Virus record (IMG/VR): IMGVR_UViG_3300043015_000560
Location: 16,086-80,085 of that record
Length of the DNA: 64,000 nt
Reading direction: 5' to 3' (one strand)
From: a virus
The notes beneath the pieces were generated by a model. It did not search any database and was not told where the DNA came from. It saw only the letters and a list, made by a program, of their open reading frames with translations. Made by a program: the position numbers and the translations under genes. Position 1 is the first letter of the stretch, and each line of letters begins with the position of its first letter. Shown here in pieces: positions 31,358 to 60,184 of this stretch.

Positions 31358-32749
31358 ATGAGACCTTTACGAATCAAAGCATCAGGCACTCCTATAACAG
31401 GTGCAAATTACCAGGGCTTACAAGAGATGAGCGATGGTGAAATTAATCAATATCTCTCAAATGTTATTACACAAAAGTTTGCCGATGACTCTGATGGTAC
31501 AGGCACAGCTGAGTTAAACATTAACGGATCGGGTACTGGCATTGGTACATTCGTTGATACACAAAGAAACGATGCAATTGGCGCTCACCCTTCAGGTGGA
31601 GCTACCACAACTACTAATTACGCATTTAACCAAGTAACAACAGCAGCAACCGAAAGTATTACTGATAGAGTAGTTGGTTGGGATAACGCAATCAAACAAA
31701 TGACTGACGGCGACTTAGATACTGACGTTTTAGATAAAGCGATTGATAGTATGGTTACCGAATCAGATTACACCGTTGGACAGTATTCACTTAGACCTAC
31801 TGCTCCTACAGGCGGCACGTGGACATCTAGATATACAATTACAGACACCGCACAAGGCGGCAACTCCACAACTTACTTGTGGCAAAAGACTGCACCTACA
31901 TCTAGCCCCAACTCAGATTTAGCAGCACTTAAAACTGACGGATCTTCTGTTAGAATGATGAGCGATGCAGAAATGGAACAGATGGTTCCTAGTTTTAGAA
32001 ATAGAATCATAGATACAAATATCGGAACATACAAGGTACAACAATCTGCTCCTTCATCTGGTGGTACTTGGGTACAGATGGGAGATTCCTTTAGTAACAC
32101 TCAACAGGAAATAGAATCTGAAAACTATGTAGGGAACTACACAGGATCTTACACCGGGGCTTATAACCAGGCGTTCTCAGGAACATATGCAGGTAACTAC
32201 ACGGGCGCCAAAACATACACCGGTAACTATTCTGGAACATATGCAGGTAACTACGTGGGTGGTTATGTGGGCGCCAAAACATACAGTGGAAGCTACTCAG
32301 GTAACTACGCAGGATCGTATCAAGGTAACTATGCAGGAACTTCAGCATATGCTGGAAACTATTCTGGATCGTATCAAGGTAACTATGTTCTATATTACGC
32401 AGGTTATGCACACGCTACATATACAGGATACTATTCTGGAACGTATACGGGTTACTACACAGGACCTAAGACATACACCGGGTACTACACTGGAACGTAT
32501 ACTGGTTACTACACAGGTAACTATGTAGGAACTTCAGCATATTCCGGAACCTATACAGGTTACTATGATGGAACCTATACAGGTAACTATGTAGGAACTT
32601 CAGCATATACAGGTTACTACACCGGCTCATATACTGGGTATTTCTCAGGATCGTATTCAGGCACATATGCCGGAACATACGCAGGCGACACTATTCAAGC
32701 GAGTAAAGAAACACTTTCAACCATTGCACTTTGGTTGAGAACTGCTTAA
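31358..32749 (+). CDS. Tyr/Gly-repeat tail-fibre protein
   Basis: 463 aa. Residues 1-255 are non-repetitive (MRPLRIKASGTPITGANYQGL; SEMEQMVPSFRNRI-like segments). Residues about 258-445 consist of tandem four-residue units of the form Y-x-G-x/T (GNYTGSYTGAYN, GTYTGYYTGPK), interrupted by KTYTG and TSAY breaks. This would form a long regular beta or polyproline-like rod with an aromatic ladder. Exposed Tyr, Ser and Thr side chains are candidates for the neighbouring modification enzymes (inference). The end is a short helix, STIALWLRTA. Confidence 0.65.
   Translation: MRPLRIKASGTPITGANYQGLQEMSDGEINQYLSNVITQKFADDSDGTGTAELNINGSGTGIGTFVDTQRNDAIGAHPSGGATTTTNYAFNQVTTAATESITDRVVGWDNAIKQMTDGDLDTDVLDKAIDSMVTESDYTVGQYSLRPTAPTGGTWTSRYTITDTAQGGNSTTYLWQKTAPTSSPNSDLAALKTDGSSVRMMSDAEMEQMVPSFRNRIIDTNIGTYKVQQSAPSSGGTWVQMGDSFSNTQQEIESENYVGNYTGSYTGAYNQAFSGTYAGNYTGAKTYTGNYSGTYAGNYVGGYVGAKTYSGSYSGNYAGSYQGNYAGTSAYAGNYSGSYQGNYVLYYAGYAHATYTGYYSGTYTGYYTGPKTYTGYYTGTYTGYYTGNYVGTSAYSGTYTGYYDGTYTGNYVGTSAYTGYYTGSYTGYFSGSYSGTYAGTYAGDTIQASKETLSTIALWLRTA
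32128..32690 (+). repeat. in-frame 12-nt tandem repeat array (Tyr/Gly)
   Basis: Degenerate 12-nt units such as GGTAACTATGCA and GGAACGTATACG, always in frame, plus larger reused blocks (GGTAACTATGTAGGAACTTC occurs twice at about 32515 and 32581). It is prone to copy-number change by slippage or recombination. Confidence 0.85.
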
Positions 32750-34672: not shown

Positions 34673-35309
34673 CATAAGCGACGAGCTATTAGATATTCTT
34701 CAACCGTACACCGACTGGTTTTTTAGTCAAGACTTAACTGAACTTGAAAAACATATTGACGGGAAAAGAGCAGGCGACGAAACTATAGATACTGCCTGTG
34801 AAAAAGAATACTTAGATATGATTGTTGCAAAGGATGGCGCCCATGTTGGATACCCAGAACATACAAAATCTATAGATATATTAATGGACGAAAGAACTCC
34901 TCGTGAACACAGAGAAAAGTGTCAAGAGTTAAATAGAGAATTGTGTGCTTACTTAGGTGCTAGAAATCAAGCAGTTCAAGTTTACTATCCTAAAGACGGA
35001 TTTATGGCCTGGCACAATAACTGGAATGCATCTGGCTATAATATTCTTTTATCTTATAGTCCAACGGGTAATGGATTCTTTAAGTATTTAGATCCTAAAA
35101 CTAAAGAACTTGTTACAATGAAAGATAAAGCAGGTTGGGCTTGTAAAGTAGGATACTACGGAAGGGGTAGAGAACCTGACAAAGTTTATTACCATTGTGC
35201 AGGTTCATATGAAGATCGCCTTACTTTAGGGTTTGTTATTCCACATTTAGAATTGTGGCGTAACATGATTGAAGATATCTCAGGAGAAGATGCTACTTCT
35301 TACCAATAG
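34659..35309 (+). CDS. 2-oxoglutarate/Fe(II) oxygenase-like protein
   Basis: 216 aa. The jelly-roll core runs from QVYYPKDGFMAWHNNWNASG to VYYHCAGSYEDRLTLGFVI. Candidate iron ligands are H119 and H179, and R187 would bind 2-oxoglutarate. The position of the acidic ligand (HxD/E) is Asn121, so the facial triad seems altered. Family members hydroxylate proteins or small molecules. It overlaps the methyltransferase gene by 14 nt, and its 3' end overlaps the convergent gene on the other strand by 17 nt. Confidence 0.7.
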   Translation: MKWVNISDELLDILQPYTDWFFSQDLTELEKHIDGKRAGDETIDTACEKEYLDMIVAKDGAHVGYPEHTKSIDILMDERTPREHREKCQELNRELCAYLGARNQAVQVYYPKDGFMAWHNNWNASGYNILLSYSPTGNGFFKYLDPKTKELVTMKDKAGWACKVGYYGRGREPDKVYYHCAGSYEDRLTLGFVIPHLELWRNMIEDISGEDATSYQ

Positions 35310-35970
35310 CCATAAATCTATCGTAAAACTTTTTACCGTCCCACGAATAATAATATTGAATTGTCTTGCCACTATAATAAGTGTCCTTTAATCCTATATT
35401 TTCTATTAGCGCAAGTTCGCTATCAACACAATTAATGCCGTACATTTCTTCCATTACGTTAGAAGACTGACAAGCAAATATTGCATGCTTGTTAGCAGTA
35501 TAAAGATCTTGTAACGGATACATCTGTTCGCACCCTAAAGATATAACAACATCTACATTCATCTGATTAAGTTCGTCAAACGCAAAAGGAACATCTAAGT
35601 TCCAGTGATTAATCTTAATGAACTCTTCTTTAATATAATGCCCATTAAAAACTTTAGATAACTCTAAAGCCTCAGGATCAATATCGACCAAGTGTAGTTG
35701 CCCTACAGATAAGTTTTCACAAAGCAGAGGCACTAAAGGAATACCTAACCAAGAATTTAGAACAAGAATATTCAATCCTTCTTCTTTCATATAGTGTTCT
35801 TCTAGAACTTTCTTTAGTTCTTCCACCATCCAAATACCTGCTTCCATAGTATTCGGATTGAGAGCCTGTCTAAAGTCCTCATGTTTATGCTTCATTTCAT
35901 GTTCGACTTTAGCTAGTCCATCGCCCCAGTGTTGGAGACTGTTTAAAAAATTATAGTTCAAATTTGACAT
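35293..35970 (-). CDS. class I methyltransferase-like protein
   Basis: 225 aa from the ATG at 35970, which has a strong GGAAGGAAAGAAG just upstream; the frame is open 141 nt further but within the preceding gene. NILVLNSWLGIPLVPLLCENL takes the place of motif I (glycines partly replaced), LHLVDIDPEALELSKVFNG is a clear motif II with the acidic ribose-binding residue, and VDVVISLGCEQMYPLQDLY is motif IV. Target unknown. Last gene of the minus-strand island. Confidence 0.7.
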   Translation of the reverse strand: MSNLNYNFLNSLQHWGDGLAKVEHEMKHKHEDFRQALNPNTMEAGIWMVEELKKVLEEHYMKEEGLNILVLNSWLGIPLVPLLCENLSVGQLHLVDIDPEALELSKVFNGHYIKEEFIKINHWNLDVPFAFDELNQMNVDVVISLGCEQMYPLQDLYTANKHAIFACQSSNVMEEMYGINCVDSELALIENIGLKDTYYSGKTIQYYYSWDGKKFYDRFMAIGKK

Positions 35971-36640
35971 CTTCTTTCCTTCCCATTGAATCAAATAAAC
36001 AAACGTAAGGCATTTGTCTATAGACTTGTTTTTCTGTATCATGGGGCCAAATATAACCTTGGTTATAACTGTACGCCCACCCAATTGGAAAATATTTAAT
36101 CCTAGCAACACCGCGGTGTCCGAAGAAATTATCTATTCCCCTGTAATACCAAAGTATCTGTTTTAGATGCTTGTTAAGATATAAAGTAATATCTTCGGTA
36201 TTTAAATTATCATTCCATCTTAAAACTGACGAGTTCAAGTCAGTATACTTATGTGGAATGTGTCTTGTATCTTTATATTGAGTTTCCATATCATGCCAGT
36301 GTGTCTTAATGAAACACAAACAATCCTCAGGATCAAACTCAACCCATTCGTCTAAGTTTCTTTGAATGATAACATCTAAGTCGAAAAACATTTTCTCGCC
36401 CTTTTGACGAACTACATTATCATCAAACAAGTACATTTTATTCCACCACTTTTCTAAGTTATTATTTTTAGGTAGTGGAATAACATTTATATCTTCAGAC
36501 AATCCTCTAGGGTCTTCTGTTAAACAAAAGAACTTAAACTCTGAGCTAATGTTCTTAACACAGGATTCGTAAATTGCTTGAACGTGCTTGTGGGAATACT
36601 TGTTTCCCCACTTCACGGTATAAATGTTTATCATTGCCAA
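35951..36640 (-). CDS. glycosyltransferase-like protein, island paralogue A
   Basis: 229 aa. Shares with three other island genes the N-terminal signature VKWGNKYSHKHVQAIY, a CLTEDPRGL segment and the metal-binding FFDLDVIIQRNL (DLD at about 87-89). These suggest a GT-A type nucleotide-sugar transferase. Another conserved part is IGWAYSYNQG near the end. It overlaps both neighbours by 10-20 nt. Confidence 0.7.
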   Translation of the reverse strand: MAMINIYTVKWGNKYSHKHVQAIYESCVKNISSEFKFFCLTEDPRGLSEDINVIPLPKNNNLEKWWNKMYLFDDNVVRQKGEKMFFDLDVIIQRNLDEWVEFDPEDCLCFIKTHWHDMETQYKDTRHIPHKYTDLNSSVLRWNDNLNTEDITLYLNKHLKQILWYYRGIDNFFGHRGVARIKYFPIGWAYSYNQGYIWPHDTEKQVYRQMPYVCLFDSMGRKEDVKFEL

Positions 36641-37443
36641 TGCTTTAATAGTTTAGGATCTACCAACTCATCTTGTTTGGTGTGTCCTCTACTCTTATCC
36701 TCAAATGGTAGTAAGTCTACATTAAACACGCAAACAATACAACCTTCTCTATAAACTCCGACATCCATATCACCACTGTCCCAATCTCTACCTCTGTTAT
36801 ACGAATAGGCGTATTCAGATGGGAAGTAGTCCCACAGGTTTTCACCATAGATGCCCCATTTCCAACTGTGATAGTTATCTGTTCCGTCGGTATAAGTGAA
36901 CCATATCTTTTCTTGATTCTCTAATACATCGTTCCAAATAATCTCACATTGATCATCGCTCCAAACTTGACAGGACCCGTTTGTGTATGCGCCGTGTGAA
37001 AGTTTGAATCTTCGTGTTTTCATTGGGCGGGGATCTTGCCACCATGAACGCATCTTTGTAGGACGCTCCATGTTGTAAGTAATGATAGGTTCTAAATCAC
37101 GTTGAATGATGACATCCAAGTCAAAGAAAATAAAGCGGCCAGTAGGTTTATCGTCTGCAAAATTATGAGTATTGAATACAAACGTCTTGGGTCTATCCCA
37201 ACATCTTGCCATGCCGTACTTGAAGTTGTCGCCACCAAACCAATACTTAGGATGGATATTGGGAATATCAGGAAAATCAATAACTTTAATATCATCTAAA
37301 AGTCCTTCTGCATCGTCGGTATAACAATAAAAATGAAAGTCGTGTTTTTTGTCGACATGCCGTTTCGTCATGTTATACAAACGATTAACAAAATGAGGCC
37401 CATACTTTGAGCCCCATTTAGAGCAGACTATATTTACCCTCAT
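36631..37443 (-). CDS. glycosyltransferase-like protein, island paralogue B
   Basis: 270 aa. CSKWGSKYGPHFVNRLYNM, YCYTDDAEGLLDD and FIFFDLDVIIQRDL (DLD about 128-130), followed by NGSCQVWSDDQCE and YAYSYNRGRDWD. Closest within the island to the paralogue at 39140. Probably cytoplasmic; acceptor unknown. The first bases overlap the end of the small gene upstream (4 nt). Confidence 0.72.
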   Translation of the reverse strand: MRVNIVCSKWGSKYGPHFVNRLYNMTKRHVDKKHDFHFYCYTDDAEGLLDDIKVIDFPDIPNIHPKYWFGGDNFKYGMARCWDRPKTFVFNTHNFADDKPTGRFIFFDLDVIIQRDLEPIITYNMERPTKMRSWWQDPRPMKTRRFKLSHGAYTNGSCQVWSDDQCEIIWNDVLENQEKIWFTYTDGTDNYHSWKWGIYGENLWDYFPSEYAYSYNRGRDWDSGDMDVGVYREGCIVCVFNVDLLPFEDKSRGHTKQDELVDPKLLKHWQ

Positions 37444-37676
37444 AGTTCTTCCACGACGTGTTGAATGACAAAATCTCTACCATACATCAAGCTATAGTTA
37501 ACTAGCTCAGAAACAATATCCTTTGTCTTTTCCTCAAATTGATTTTTATTACAATGAACGACAATAGAAACAAACTTGCCGTTTCTAACAGAGTCGATTA
37601 CATCGTCCGTATCTTTTTTATCCCAAGTATCAAAGGATCCAAAATACGCATCCGCTTTCCTTGTTGATTTATACAT
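37440..37676 (-). CDS. small protein, possibly a degenerate nucleotidyltransferase
   Basis: 78 aa from the ATG at 37676, with GGAG 9 nt upstream (an in-frame GTG lies at 37691). AYFGSFDTWDKKDTDDVIDSV and KFVSIVVHCNKNQFEEKT resemble the GxFDxxHxGH start and following strand of cytidylyl/adenylyltransferases, but both active-site histidines are absent. The resemblance is weak. The start overlaps the end of the SPASM fusion gene (ATGTATAA). Confidence 0.5.
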   Translation of the reverse strand: MYKSTRKADAYFGSFDTWDKKDTDDVIDSVRNGKFVSIVVHCNKNQFEEKTKDIVSELVNYSLMYGRDFVIQHVVEEL

Positions 37677-39174
37677 TTTTGCACGCTCCACATTTTAGTT
37701 TACAAATGTTGCTAGGGTCTAGTTTTAATTTATTATTGAAGTATGCTGTGTAAAAAGCATTCGTCAAAATAGACTCTAGCGGTTCTAACTTACAATTGTT
37801 GGCCTTCCAATTATATATGATGTCTGTATCTTCATAAGGATTAATGTCTGCTTCTAGTATTTCTCTAGCAGTGTAAACACACGGGAAAACATTTCCTCGC
37901 TTGTCTATGTAACATTTATTCTCAATTTTAGATTTACATCTAACCTTCTTCTCAAATTTAACTTTTACATCTACATAGTCTGCCTCTTTAGGTTTTGTTT
38001 GTAGAGTATCAAGTTCTATTAACTTATAGTCTGGAAGTTCTTTAACAATTATTCTTTCTTCTTTAACTGGTAGTTCAGGTGGCTTGTTTTCAATAAAAGT
38101 AAAGCCACTGAATTTATGTTTTTTGGATAACGCTCTTGCCTCTTCAATGTCATTATCAGATTGTGTGGTTCTAGTGTATTGCCAAAAAACACGAGCTCCA
38201 CTCTTTAACAAGGCCTTTGCATTTGTAATTTGTTTATCAAAGTCTTTGTTATTAATGTCATCAATTGTAGCAGTGATGTTACCCATTTTTCTATATAGTA
38301 TCCCGGTGCTACCCCACCAAAATTCATCATGTGATGTTAAGTCTGTTAATACATCTACACTCACACCTTCAAACTCTAGAAAGTATTCAGAGATGTCGTA
38401 AAAGTCCTCACATAAACTTGGCTCTTCTACGTCATTGGATAAAATTAACTTGGTCATTCTAGACTTTCCTAGAAAGTCCTTATTAAAGATCCTAACAACC
38501 TCATCATAGCTAAATCCATTTACTTCCATTTCTATTTCAGAAGGCAAGTAAGGATACAAATCTATAGACCTATTATAACAGTTTTCTACGTAGCTGTCAA
38601 GAGTATGAGTGTACCAATAAGGAAAGGTAACGATATCATCTGTAAGACTAATTGGATAGTCTTTGTTTTGTGTATTTAAAAACGGAAGTGATGGTAGTTC
38701 GTTAACTTGAAACTCTTGTTTGAATTCGTAGTTATAAAATGTTATGTCTTGTTCGTCTCTATCCCATTTTTGTATCAGATTCTGTACATATTTGTTCTTA
38801 TGTATATAATATGTAACATTTTCGTCTTGCATTAAAACTTTATCAATACCACTGCCTTTGTACGATAAAAGGGCCATAGGATCATTTAATAAGACGTTTG
38901 GAGTAGTAAAAAGACTAACTCCATTATCCTTGGTATGTTGTATTAAGTCTATTTCTAACCACTGCTTTCCATACTTTGGAACATGGAATTGAATGCCGTC
39001 TACAAAGCCGTCTCGCTTTTTAGTGCTATTGATATTGTCGAGTTCTTCCTGTGTAGTGAAAACAAAGAAGTCAAAAGGCTGCTCAATCAGGTTCTTTGCC
39101 TGAGTATAGAAATTGTTTATATGGATTTGACTGTACTTACTATCCAGTAAGTTTGCTATTAAAGTTAGCTCCAT
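37669..39174 (-). CDS. GT-like / degenerate radical-SAM / SPASM fusion protein
   Basis: 501 aa. Residues 1-190 resemble the island glycosyltransferases (LDSKYSQIHINNFYTQAKNL; DFFVFTTQEEL), but where the DLD should be is SLFTTPNVLLND. Residues about 215-360 have the texture of a radical-SAM barrel (MTKLILSNDVEEPSLCEDFYD; TSHDEFWWGSTG), yet no CxxxCxxC exists. The C-terminus has SPASM-like cysteines: C413-x13-G427-x4-C432, then C461 and C491, C495, C498. It may be a modification enzyme that lost its barrel cluster, or a binding scaffold. Confidence 0.65.
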   Translation of the reverse strand: MELTLIANLLDSKYSQIHINNFYTQAKNLIEQPFDFFVFTTQEELDNINSTKKRDGFVDGIQFHVPKYGKQWLEIDLIQHTKDNGVSLFTTPNVLLNDPMALLSYKGSGIDKVLMQDENVTYYIHKNKYVQNLIQKWDRDEQDITFYNYEFKQEFQVNELPSLPFLNTQNKDYPISLTDDIVTFPYWYTHTLDSYVENCYNRSIDLYPYLPSEIEMEVNGFSYDEVVRIFNKDFLGKSRMTKLILSNDVEEPSLCEDFYDISEYFLEFEGVSVDVLTDLTSHDEFWWGSTGILYRKMGNITATIDDINNKDFDKQITNAKALLKSGARVFWQYTRTTQSDNDIEEARALSKKHKFSGFTFIENKPPELPVKEERIIVKELPDYKLIELDTLQTKPKEADYVDVKVKFEKKVRCKSKIENKCYIDKRGNVFPCVYTAREILEADINPYEDTDIIYNWKANNCKLEPLESILTNAFYTAYFNNKLKLDPSNICKLKCGACKNV

Positions 39175-39922
39175 GCCAATGCCTCAAAAGTTTCTCATCT
39201 TGTAATTCACTCATTTTAATCTGCGCCTTAGCTGCAGGGTCTGGAGTTAAGTCTGTATTAAACAAACAAACTTTATACTCCTCTCTATATTTATACTTCT
39301 CTTTATCCTCTTTATGATGAGCTCCTCTATTATAAGAGTAAACCCAATCCCAAGGAATGTTGCCCCAGAACTTTTTTTGTCTCCAGTAATGGTAGTTATC
39401 TGATCCTTTAAAGAATGTTTTAAATACTACATCTTGGTGTTCTAGAACATCGTAGTAAATTTTCTCACATTGACTCCCATTCCAACACATCATACTAGAA
39501 TTAAAATAAGTTCCTCTAATATCAATAAAGAATCTCTCATGTTGTTGTCCGGGTGGTTGCCATTTAGATTCGATTATTCTAGGTTTGTTTGCTAGATTGT
39601 ATAGATCGTTTATATTGTTTTGAACAATAACATCTAAATCAAAGTAACACCATTTACCCTCATAGCCTAGCCACTTATGAGAGTTGAATACAAGGAACTT
39701 AGCACGATCCCAACAAAAGTTTTCCTTTCCAAACCAATAGTCTGGATGCAGTGGCTCAATATTGGGGATAGGCGCGGTGGCGCAATCGAGTCCTTCTGCG
39801 TCATCTGTAAAACAGGTAAAGGTGCAGGGTCGAGTATAGTGTCTCTCAACCATTGCCTTTAAATTGTTTACATATTCAGGAGAATATTTACTTCCCCATT
39901 TGATACATACGAAGTTCATCAT
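39140..39922 (-). CDS. glycosyltransferase-like protein, island paralogue C
   Basis: 260 aa. IKWGSKYSPEYVNNLKAMVERH, CFTDDAEGLDCATAP, WCYFDLDVIVQNNI (DLD about 93-95), YFNSSMMCWNGSQCE and WDWVYSYNRGAHH. Same family and order of motifs as paralogue B. It overlaps the start of the fusion gene downstream by 35 nt, an unusually long overlap, and contains a minus-strand TATAAATA (39295-39288). Confidence 0.72.
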   Translation of the reverse strand: MMNFVCIKWGSKYSPEYVNNLKAMVERHYTRPCTFTCFTDDAEGLDCATAPIPNIEPLHPDYWFGKENFCWDRAKFLVFNSHKWLGYEGKWCYFDLDVIVQNNINDLYNLANKPRIIESKWQPPGQQHERFFIDIRGTYFNSSMMCWNGSQCEKIYYDVLEHQDVVFKTFFKGSDNYHYWRQKKFWGNIPWDWVYSYNRGAHHKEDKEKYKYREEYKVCLFNTDLTPDPAAKAQIKMSELQDEKLLRHWHGANFNSKLTG

Positions 39923-40538
39923 ATCTTTTTGCTATGTCCTCTTGAACTGATTCTTGTCCATTCAATAATGCTATTGTTGCGTCTTTTATTTTACCACCAT
40001 CAAACCAAAATGAATAAACCTCATTTTCGGGAAAGTGTTCAAATGTAAAACTCTCATGGTATAAAAACCTATCATCACCTGCATACTTTACCATATAGTA
40101 ATCTTTATTCTTTTCCCAGTAATCATATATATGTCTGTTATCTTCCCACATCATCACACTAGAATTAAAATTGCTTAAATAATTATATGACCACCTACTG
40201 TCTTTGTGATAAGGGAATTCTTGAGGTTTCCAGTAAGTGTAACATATGATGGGGTTCTTGTCAAGCATTTTCCACAAATGTTCTATACCTTTTTGTATTC
40301 TAATATCTAAGTCTAAATAAAGAACTTTGCCTAAGTTTTCAAGTTTGAACAGTTTAACCTTTTCCCAATGCCCTTCAATTTCATGATCTATAGGTATTGT
40401 TGTTATATTTTTATTGAGTCCAATAGGATTATCAGTTACACAGACGCGGTTGTAGTCACCTGGAATAGAATTATAAATACGATTAACGTCCTCAGACGTA
40501 TATTTGTCCCCGTATTTTAATGTCAAAATTGTTTTCAT
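39888..40538 (-). CDS. glycosyltransferase-like protein, island paralogue D
   Basis: 216 aa, first gene of the minus-strand unit. LKYGDKYTSEDVNRIYNSIPG, CVTDNPIGLNKNITTIP, VLYLDLDIRIQKGI (DLD about 77-79), FNSSVMMWEDN and EVYSFWFDGG. The most diverged paralogue. No late box lies directly upstream on this strand, so its promoter was not identified. Confidence 0.7.
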   Translation of the reverse strand: MKTILTLKYGDKYTSEDVNRIYNSIPGDYNRVCVTDNPIGLNKNITTIPIDHEIEGHWEKVKLFKLENLGKVLYLDLDIRIQKGIEHLWKMLDKNPIICYTYWKPQEFPYHKDSRWSYNYLSNFNSSVMMWEDNRHIYDYWEKNKDYYMVKYAGDDRFLYHESFTFEHFPENEVYSFWFDGGKIKDATIALLNGQESVQEDIAKRYDELRMYQMGK

Positions 40539-59433: not shown

Positions 59434-59483
59434 TTCCGTAACAACGGAACACTTTAAAGGGACTCTTAGGAGTCCCTTTTTTT
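59434..59483 (+). terminator. double hairpin terminator after gp23
   Basis: First hairpin TTCCGT-AACA-ACGGAA (59434-59449), then AAAGGGACTC-TTAG-GAGTCCCTTT (59456-59479), running into a T tract (59477-59483). The second one is a classical rho-independent terminator. Confidence 0.92.
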
Positions 59484-59503: not shown

Positions 59504-59511
59504 TATAAATA
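59504..59511 (+). promoter_or_regulatory. late promoter box before the lipoprotein gene
   Basis: TATAAATA, 46 nt upstream of the lipoprotein ATG and after the gp23 terminator, making this an independent late unit closed by the terminator at 59945. Confidence 0.75.
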
Positions 59512-59557: not shown

Positions 59558-59833
59558 ATGAATAAATTATTCACTATTATTGCAGTCCTCGGTTTTGTAG
59601 TTTTATTACCTTCATGTGCTTCAGTTGGAGCAGTTATAGAAGGTGGTAAAGACGTGACTACAAGTATAGTTGATACATCTGTCAAAACAGCGGGTAACAT
59701 TGGTACGGCTGTTCTTAGAGATGCCTCTGACATTGTTAATACAGCAGCAGATGCAGCTGAAGGTGTCGTAGATACAGTAGTTACGGAGATTGATAAGCAA
59801 ACCGACGAGCTTCAAGAACCAAAAAAGGACTAA
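59558..59833 (+). CDS. small phage lipoprotein (zero-frame product)
   Basis: 91 aa. Signal peptide of the lipoprotein class: NKLFTIIAVLGFVVLLPSC, with LPSC as lipobox and Cys20 as the lipidated residue. The mature part is an amphipathic, Ala/Val/Thr/Asp repeat (VGAVIEGGKDVTTSIVDTSV, NIGTAVLRDASDIVNTAAD) ending in KKD. It would be anchored in the host envelope. Known phage lipoproteins include outer-membrane spanins and superinfection-exclusion proteins; neither can be shown here. It has its own late promoter and terminator. The last codons form an A-AAA-AAG slippery site. Confidence 0.8.
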   Translation: MNKLFTIIAVLGFVVLLPSCASVGAVIEGGKDVTTSIVDTSVKTAGNIGTAVLRDASDIVNTAADAAEGVVDTVVTEIDKQTDELQEPKKD

Positions 59834-59940
59834 GGATTTTCTCTATTCGCAACGAGAAAAGACAAGCCGATCAAGACATTAAAATTCTAGTTAAACGGAT
59901 ATTAAAGTATTGTGAGGATAATCCAAAAGAGTGCGAATAA
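59821..59940 (+). CDS. -1 frameshift extension of the lipoprotein
   Basis: The end of the lipoprotein gene reads CCA AAA AAG GAC TAA. A-AAA-AAG (59821-59827) is the dnaX-type slippery heptamer. Nine nt after it, TTTTCTC (59837-59843) pairs with GAGAAAA (59854-59860) around a 10-nt loop, and AAGGA lies in the spacer. A -1 slip opens a frame of 37 codons (GLRIFSIRNEKRQADQDIKI..., ending NPKECE) to the stop at 59938-59940, immediately before a terminator. The extension is basic/helical with two Cys and has no usable start codon of its own. Confidence 0.6.
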   Translation, partial: KKGLRIFSIRNEKRQADQDIKILVKRILKYCEDNPKECE

Positions 59941-59944
59941 ACTA

Positions 59945-59967
59945 GGGCAGGAAACTGCCCTTTTTTA
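59945..59967 (+). terminator. rho-independent terminator after the lipoprotein unit
   Basis: GGGCAG-GAAA-CTGCCC followed by TTTTTT (59961-59966). It is 4 nt after the stop of the frameshift extension, which supports that extension being part of the gene. Confidence 0.92.
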
Positions 59968-59971
59968 TCTT

Positions 59972-59979
59972 TATAAATA
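59972..59979 (+). promoter_or_regulatory. late promoter box before the small basic protein
   Basis: TATAAATA, 43 nt upstream of the ATG at 60023, directly after the terminator. Confidence 0.75.
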
Positions 59980-60022: not shown

Positions 60023-60184
60023 ATGGCTAAATCATGGCAAAACACAAAGAACGCACTTAGACACATAGTTAAAGGTACATCACAAGGCGATGGTGGCAGA
60101 GGGCGAAAAACAAAACAAAACACCAGTACAATGAACAAACATAGAAGACGTTCATTTAAGAAATATAGAGGACAGGGCAAATAA
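60023..60184 (+). CDS. small basic protein
   Basis: 53 aa, below common ORF length limits. AKSWQNTKNALRHIVKGTSQ, then GGRGRKTKQ and a C-terminal NKHRRRSFKKYRGQGK. Strongly positively charged, no Cys. RBS GGAGAG and a late promoter precede it, and the stop overlaps the next start (TAATG), so it is clearly translated with the tail-completion protein. It might bind nucleic acid or be a virion peptide. Confidence 0.7.
   Translation: MAKSWQNTKNALRHIVKGTSQGDGGRGRKTKQNTSTMNKHRRRSFKKYRGQGK

Follow-up and report, generated by a model that had tools for sequence, protein, structure and literature searches.

Directly downstream of the gene for the major capsid protein (gp23) and its terminator, we find a short gene for a predicted lipoprotein (Table 1). 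Positions refer to the whole stretch of DNA that was analysed, 64,000 nucleotides, which we will call the window. Because the gp23 terminator stands upstream, the lipoprotein gene appears to be its own transcription unit. A scan of the window for lipoboxes found no other convincing lipoprotein ORF. The promoter sequence, TATAAATA, which is the T4-type consensus for the -10 element of late promoters, occurs 18 times in the window, as compared to 7.0 times expected from shuffling, and most of these boxes precede late genes.

Table 1. Features of the lipoprotein gene and its surroundings in the window
Feature	Position	Strand	Description or basis
gp23 terminator, 5' of the lipoprotein gene	59456..59479	+	sets off the lipoprotein gene as a separate transcription unit
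Late-promoter -10 box TATAAATA	59504..59511	+	exact T4-type; begins 54 nt 5' of the lipoprotein start codon
Lipoprotein ORF, frame 0	59558..59833	+	91 aa; signal peptide; lipobox LPSC (Cys20, +2 Ala); predicted mostly helical
Slippery heptamer A_AAA_AAG	59821..59827	+	in frame; a single codon separates it from the TAA
-1 frame extension GLRIFSIRNEKRQADQDIKILVKRILKYCEDNPKECE	59827..59940	+	37 codons + TAA; open frame, comparative support
0-frame stop TAA	59831..59833	+	sequence
7-bp stem-loop TTTTCTC/GAGAAAA	arms 59837-59843, 59854-59860	+	begins 9 nt after the heptamer; weak in the window, stronger and with covariation in relatives
Intrinsic terminator stem, then T run	59944..59961	+	begins 4 nt past the extension stop
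Next late promoter TATAAATA	59972..59979	+	serves the downstream 53-aa ORF and the tail-tube gene

The lipoprotein gene ends with a potential signal for ribosomal frameshifting. In frame 0, the heptamer is read as ccA AAA AAG GAC TAA, a phasing that allows both tRNAs to slip by -1 in tandem, and the -1 frame then runs from GGA to GAA (59827-59937) before its stop codon (59938-59940). We rechecked the heptamer, the stem-loop, the extension, and the terminator, and the positions in the first-pass annotation were all correct. In the window itself, the hairpin is weak, with a folding energy of -7.1 kcal/mol and a z of -1.1 (or -1.4 against synonymous shuffles). Elsewhere in the window, an in-frame A_AAA_AAG is found at none of the 9652 codons of the large ORFs, despite 23 Lys-Lys pairs.

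Several other genes in the window may be of interest. Between the lipoprotein and tail-tube genes lies a strongly basic 53-aa ORF (60023-60184) with its own TATAAATA promoter and a weak match to phrog_17967. Far from the lipoprotein gene, positions 116-610 encode a secreted cell wall hydrolase of the SleB type (PF07486), which is a candidate endolysin. The C-terminal half of the protein encoded at 31358-32749, probably a tail fibre or adhesin, contains long G-x-Y-x-G-x-Y repeats, and a cluster of glycosyltransferase-like proteins is encoded on the minus strand inside the tail region (35293-40538).

Relatives of the lipoprotein gene in uncultured viruses

Two profile scans of IMG/VR found 237 and 208 relatives of the lipoprotein, in overlapping sets. 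The best 80 were kept from each, and from the retrieved loci (referred to by L numbers), we scored the 108 distinct sequences whose end is complete. These relatives show that the gene is widespread among uncultured, mostly T4-like marine viruses. Searches for the lipoprotein with tblastn against 50,697 cultured-phage records, with megablast against phages, and in GTDB genomes found no match, among records that may exclude those very near the window. Matches among PDB sequences were at chance level, and Pfam, PHROGs, and NCBIfam gave weak matches only, with no described family.

The heptamer and the extension go together in these relatives. One of two heptamers, A_AAA_AAG (51 sequences) or G_GGA_AAG (20 sequences), precedes the stop codon in 71 of the 108, always at a distance of exactly 0 or 1 codon, and each of these 71 has a -1 extension that contains C-x6-C. 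Both the heptamer and such an extension are absent from the remaining 37. The lengths of the body and the linker vary; the position of the heptamer and the terminal motif are constant. The longer motif Y-C-x2-4-P-xx-C is present in 69 of the 71. One exception, L194, has F instead of Y, and L215 has a different extension in which C-x6-C is still present. In an alignment of 29 sequences, the Y, both C, and the P of the extension are invariant. The first-pass annotation had described the extension as a basic, cysteine-containing arm. The two C-terminal cysteines are conserved, but the basic character is local to the window; what is invariant is a helix (as predicted by AlphaFold, with a pLDDT of 84) that ends in C-x6-C.

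In L003-L006, the nearest relatives that lack the signal (with a ~90% identical lipoprotein), the protein ends with PKQD and a stop codon, there is no heptamer and no extension, and the terminator follows directly after the stop. Relatives with a conserved lipoprotein and an interrupted extension had been named in the first-pass annotation as potential counter-evidence. But since the heptamer and the extension were lost jointly, L003-L006 support the link between them.

In a sister lineage (L156:2545-3062 and L157:104-672), the extension and the stem are kept, the heptamer is lost, and a 1-nt deletion has moved the extension to the +1/-2 frame. This lineage may have switched to another type of frameshift.

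On a tree that was built without the C-terminal tail, and which has few columns and many unresolved forks (its starred branches require 3 to 5 changes for each heptamer label), A_AAA_AAG and G_GGA_AAG have been exchanged about 12 times. Because these heptamers encode different residues (KK or GK) and yet replace each other, it appears to be the slipperiness of the nucleotides, not the amino acids, that is maintained. The extension itself has a pooled pN/pS of 0.31, or 0.19 across its last 20 codons (23 independent pairs), and when codons are read in the -1 frame, there are 127 substitutions at first positions, 82 at second positions, and 228 at third positions. Judging from these patterns, the extension is evolving as a protein and is under purifying selection, which is the codon constraint that the first-pass annotation had proposed looking for.

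The relatives also make the case for an RNA structure. Their hairpins typically begin 6 nt past the heptamer, and the stems are of unrelated sequence in different clades (GCC..GGC, GCTCATTC..GAGTGAGC, CTTCATC..GATGAAG, or GCCATTC..GAATGGC). In all 26 representatives, a segment of 45 nt folds better than the mean of its synonymous shuffles (mean z of -2.3, with 21 of the 26 below -1.5). Within the window's own clade, stem covariation is 0.305, as compared to 0.138 for shuffled alignments (0/500), and it is lost if the pairing partner is slid along. These comparisons support a stimulatory structure downstream of the heptamer, and it is only through the relatives that it becomes convincing. A Shine-Dalgarno-like stimulator upstream of the heptamer, of the type known from dnaX, is found in just 19 of the 71 heptamer-bearing relatives; it is not obligatory for this class of frameshift.

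Probable programmed frameshifting and its alternatives

The features that define -1 frameshifting are a conserved heptamer in phase, a downstream structure, and a conserved -1 frame protein without its own start codon, and all of these are found here. We conclude that this gene very probably encodes two envelope proteins via programmed -1 ribosomal frameshifting. The first-pass annotation had proposed two products from the window's sequence; relatives with equivalent heptamers do exist, and the comparison strongly supports the proposal, through the linkage in 71 of 71, the selection on the extension, the RNA structure, and the lack of start codons. A chance run of lysine codons can be rejected, as the heptamer is absent from the window's other large ORFs, is conserved in 71 relatives, and is interchangeable with a second heptamer.

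We considered two other ways in which the extension might be expressed. RNA polymerase might stutter on the run of A and yield some mRNAs with an in-frame fusion, and runs of A6-A7 are indeed present in the A_AAA_AAG members of the family. But A6 is below the run length of more than 7 that is quoted for transcriptional realignment (PMC3711429), and 20 of the 71 relatives have GGGAAAG instead, with no run longer than 3. The conservation of the phase, and of a hairpin at the distance expected for frameshifting, also argues against this explanation. Because of the GGGAAAG members, which lack a homopolymer run, we reject transcriptional slippage as the main mechanism and consider it very improbable. 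Alternatively, the extension might be a separate small protein that is translated by reinitiation or from an internal start, as the -1 ORF overlaps the stop codon in the manner of coupled genes. However, in 69 of the 71 relatives, the -1 frame contains no ATG, GTG, or TTG between the last upstream stop and 6 codons past the heptamer, and a separate protein would not need a conserved heptamer. With no usable start codon in 69 of 71, this mechanism is also rejected as the main one, and we give it almost no credence.

Under programmed frameshifting, most ribosomes would read through to the TAA and produce the 91-aa lipoprotein. Ribosomes at ccA AAA AAG would pause at the hairpin, and a fraction would re-pair in tandem at -1, add 37 residues, and end with Y-C-x6-C plus one residue. 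The frameshift would set the ratio of the short form to the long form. Both forms share the signal peptide and the lipobox, so both should be lipidated, anchored in the outer membrane, and facing the periplasm. Sorting to the outer membrane is predicted from the +2 rule because the +2 residue is Ala, not Asp. Only the long form has cysteines beyond the lipidated one, so only the long form could form a disulfide. AlphaFold predicts that the lipoprotein is a single long helix (with a low pTM of 0.28).

Among the genes of DNA phages, -1 frameshifting is known mostly from tail chaperones and capsid proteins. The literature on recoding and on spanins that we searched, which covers these fields in part, does not mention a frameshift in a phage lipoprotein. 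With its naturally interchangeable heptamers, a conserved frameshift in an exported lipoprotein amounts to a clean natural experiment on how frameshift signals evolve. The extension is probably missed by gene callers, and the frameshift hypothesis is open to testing with small reporters.

Genomic neighbourhoods and possible functions

The neighbours of the lipoprotein gene vary across relatives. In L036, L083, L093, L104, and L108, which lack the extension, it directly precedes genes for a holin or holin-like protein and for an endolysin. In L215, which has the heptamer, the lipoprotein gene is followed shortly downstream (951-2328) by genes for a lysozyme, an Rz-like i-spanin, and an overlapping Rz1-like o-spanin. 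But most of the heptamer-bearing genes are in curli/CHASE2, replication, or capsid regions, and are not beside holin or endolysin genes.

Small transmembrane proteins are often encoded upstream. At 35 of the 71 heptamer-bearing loci, the lipoprotein gene is preceded by a gene for a protein of 43-76 aa (MKHMIKWLKI...) with one TM segment and a short tail after it, and proteins of ~100 aa with two TM segments are also often encoded just upstream. Sets of such genes, unannotated and of no clear family, are found at L016:3510-3945, L044:3509-3902, L122:2602-3368, and L159:2746-3521. The upstream proteins are candidates for holin-like proteins or partners of the lipoprotein. A search of the window found no homologues of them.

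Tentatively, we propose that the lipoprotein is a late, lysis-associated envelope protein, either spanin-like or assisting the spanins, which seems the most likely of its possible roles. The genes next to it in the five relatives with holin and endolysin and in L215 suggest a role in lysis, although most heptamer-bearing genes do not have such neighbours, L215 has its own i-spanin and o-spanin, and spanin profiles match just 1 of 27 members (E = 0.025). The first-pass annotation had suggested proteins for lysis or exclusion. The lysis cassettes in relatives favour lysis, and we found no evidence for exclusion.

More specifically, the long form might be an o-spanin proper, with the short form as a regulator or spacer. 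O-spanins are recognized as short proteins with a lipobox, which describes the 91-aa ORF, the only convincing lipoprotein ORF in the window; the helical body, the two C-terminal cysteines, the late promoter, and the lysis genes near some relatives are consistent with this as well. In the T4 o-spanin PseT.2, which also has paired C-terminal cysteines, both are needed for lysis (PMC6139136), and the parallel with C-x6-C is suggestive. On the other hand, besides the weak profile match, we found no i-spanin partner in the window, the one-TM protein encoded near 35 of the 71 loci has only a short tail beyond its TM segment for such a role, and the relatives without the extension sit beside holin and endolysin genes while lacking the cysteines. 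Because L215 already has an Rz/Rz1-like pair, the label of o-spanin is not established, and we think it rather unlikely that it fits.

A role in superinfection exclusion is also unlikely. As a small phage lipoprotein that faces the periplasm and is mobile between sites in the genome, the protein might jam a receptor from the periplasmic side, as do T5 Llp or Cor; there is precedent in Llp (PMC9586334). But it matches no described family, a single long helix is predicted, and its gene in the window is a unit by itself under a late promoter of the T4 type, whereas exclusion proteins are stated to be expressed early.

Another idea is that the lipoprotein belongs to a curli-like surface module. 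At L011:67-6495, the lipoprotein gene lies in a cassette that encodes CsgG, curlin-repeat proteins, a FecR protein, and a CHASE2 adenylate/guanylate cyclase, and across the 71 heptamer-bearing loci, CHASE2 is nearby in 41 and curlin-like genes in 25. Curli-related proteins of pelagimyophages have been described (PMC7029224), and a role in lysis was proposed for the phage CsgGF of methylophage Melnitz (PMC9004378). However, genes of the window, L039, and L044 types are outside of any such module and adjoin gp23, gp32, or gp43, so we consider membership in the module quite improbable.

Returning to a late role in the envelope, it is possible that this gene represents a new class of programmed frameshifting in phages. 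Slippage would set the ratio of a cysteine-free to a disulfide-capable outer-membrane lipoprotein, and, at the level of translation, would serve as a timer or a control of stoichiometry for the late disruption of the envelope in abundant uncultured marine phages. The gene offers a lead on envelope function in widespread phages, T4-like marine phages and others, whose lysis is little understood.

Comparison with known systems

The frameshift signal resembles that of dnaX (tau/gamma), which has the same A_AAA_AAG in the same phase, with a downstream hairpin at a similar spacing. Unlike in dnaX, frameshifting would yield the longer product, the gene encodes a phage lipoprotein, and the Shine-Dalgarno-like stimulator is present in a minority of members. 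The alternative heptamer, GGGAAAG, is the one used by the frameshift in the G/GT tail-assembly chaperones of phage lambda. There, too, a phage protein is C-terminally extended in a minority of cases, at a set ratio, but the lambda chaperone is cytoplasmic and unrelated, and the protein described here is predicted to be exported and lipidated.

The capsid genes of phages T7 (10A/10B) and T3 are structural genes that likewise give a short form and a C-extended form by frameshifting (PMC5009743). They differ in the gene and its location, and in our case the extension ends with a pair of cysteines. T4 PseT.2 and other o-spanins are similar in being small lipoproteins with two cysteines away from the lipid anchor, but there is no sequence match, and here the pair of cysteines would be supplied by frameshifting. 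T5 Llp and Cor share the small size and the orientation towards the periplasm. They too have no sequence match to this family, whose gene in the window has a late promoter and would give two forms of its product.
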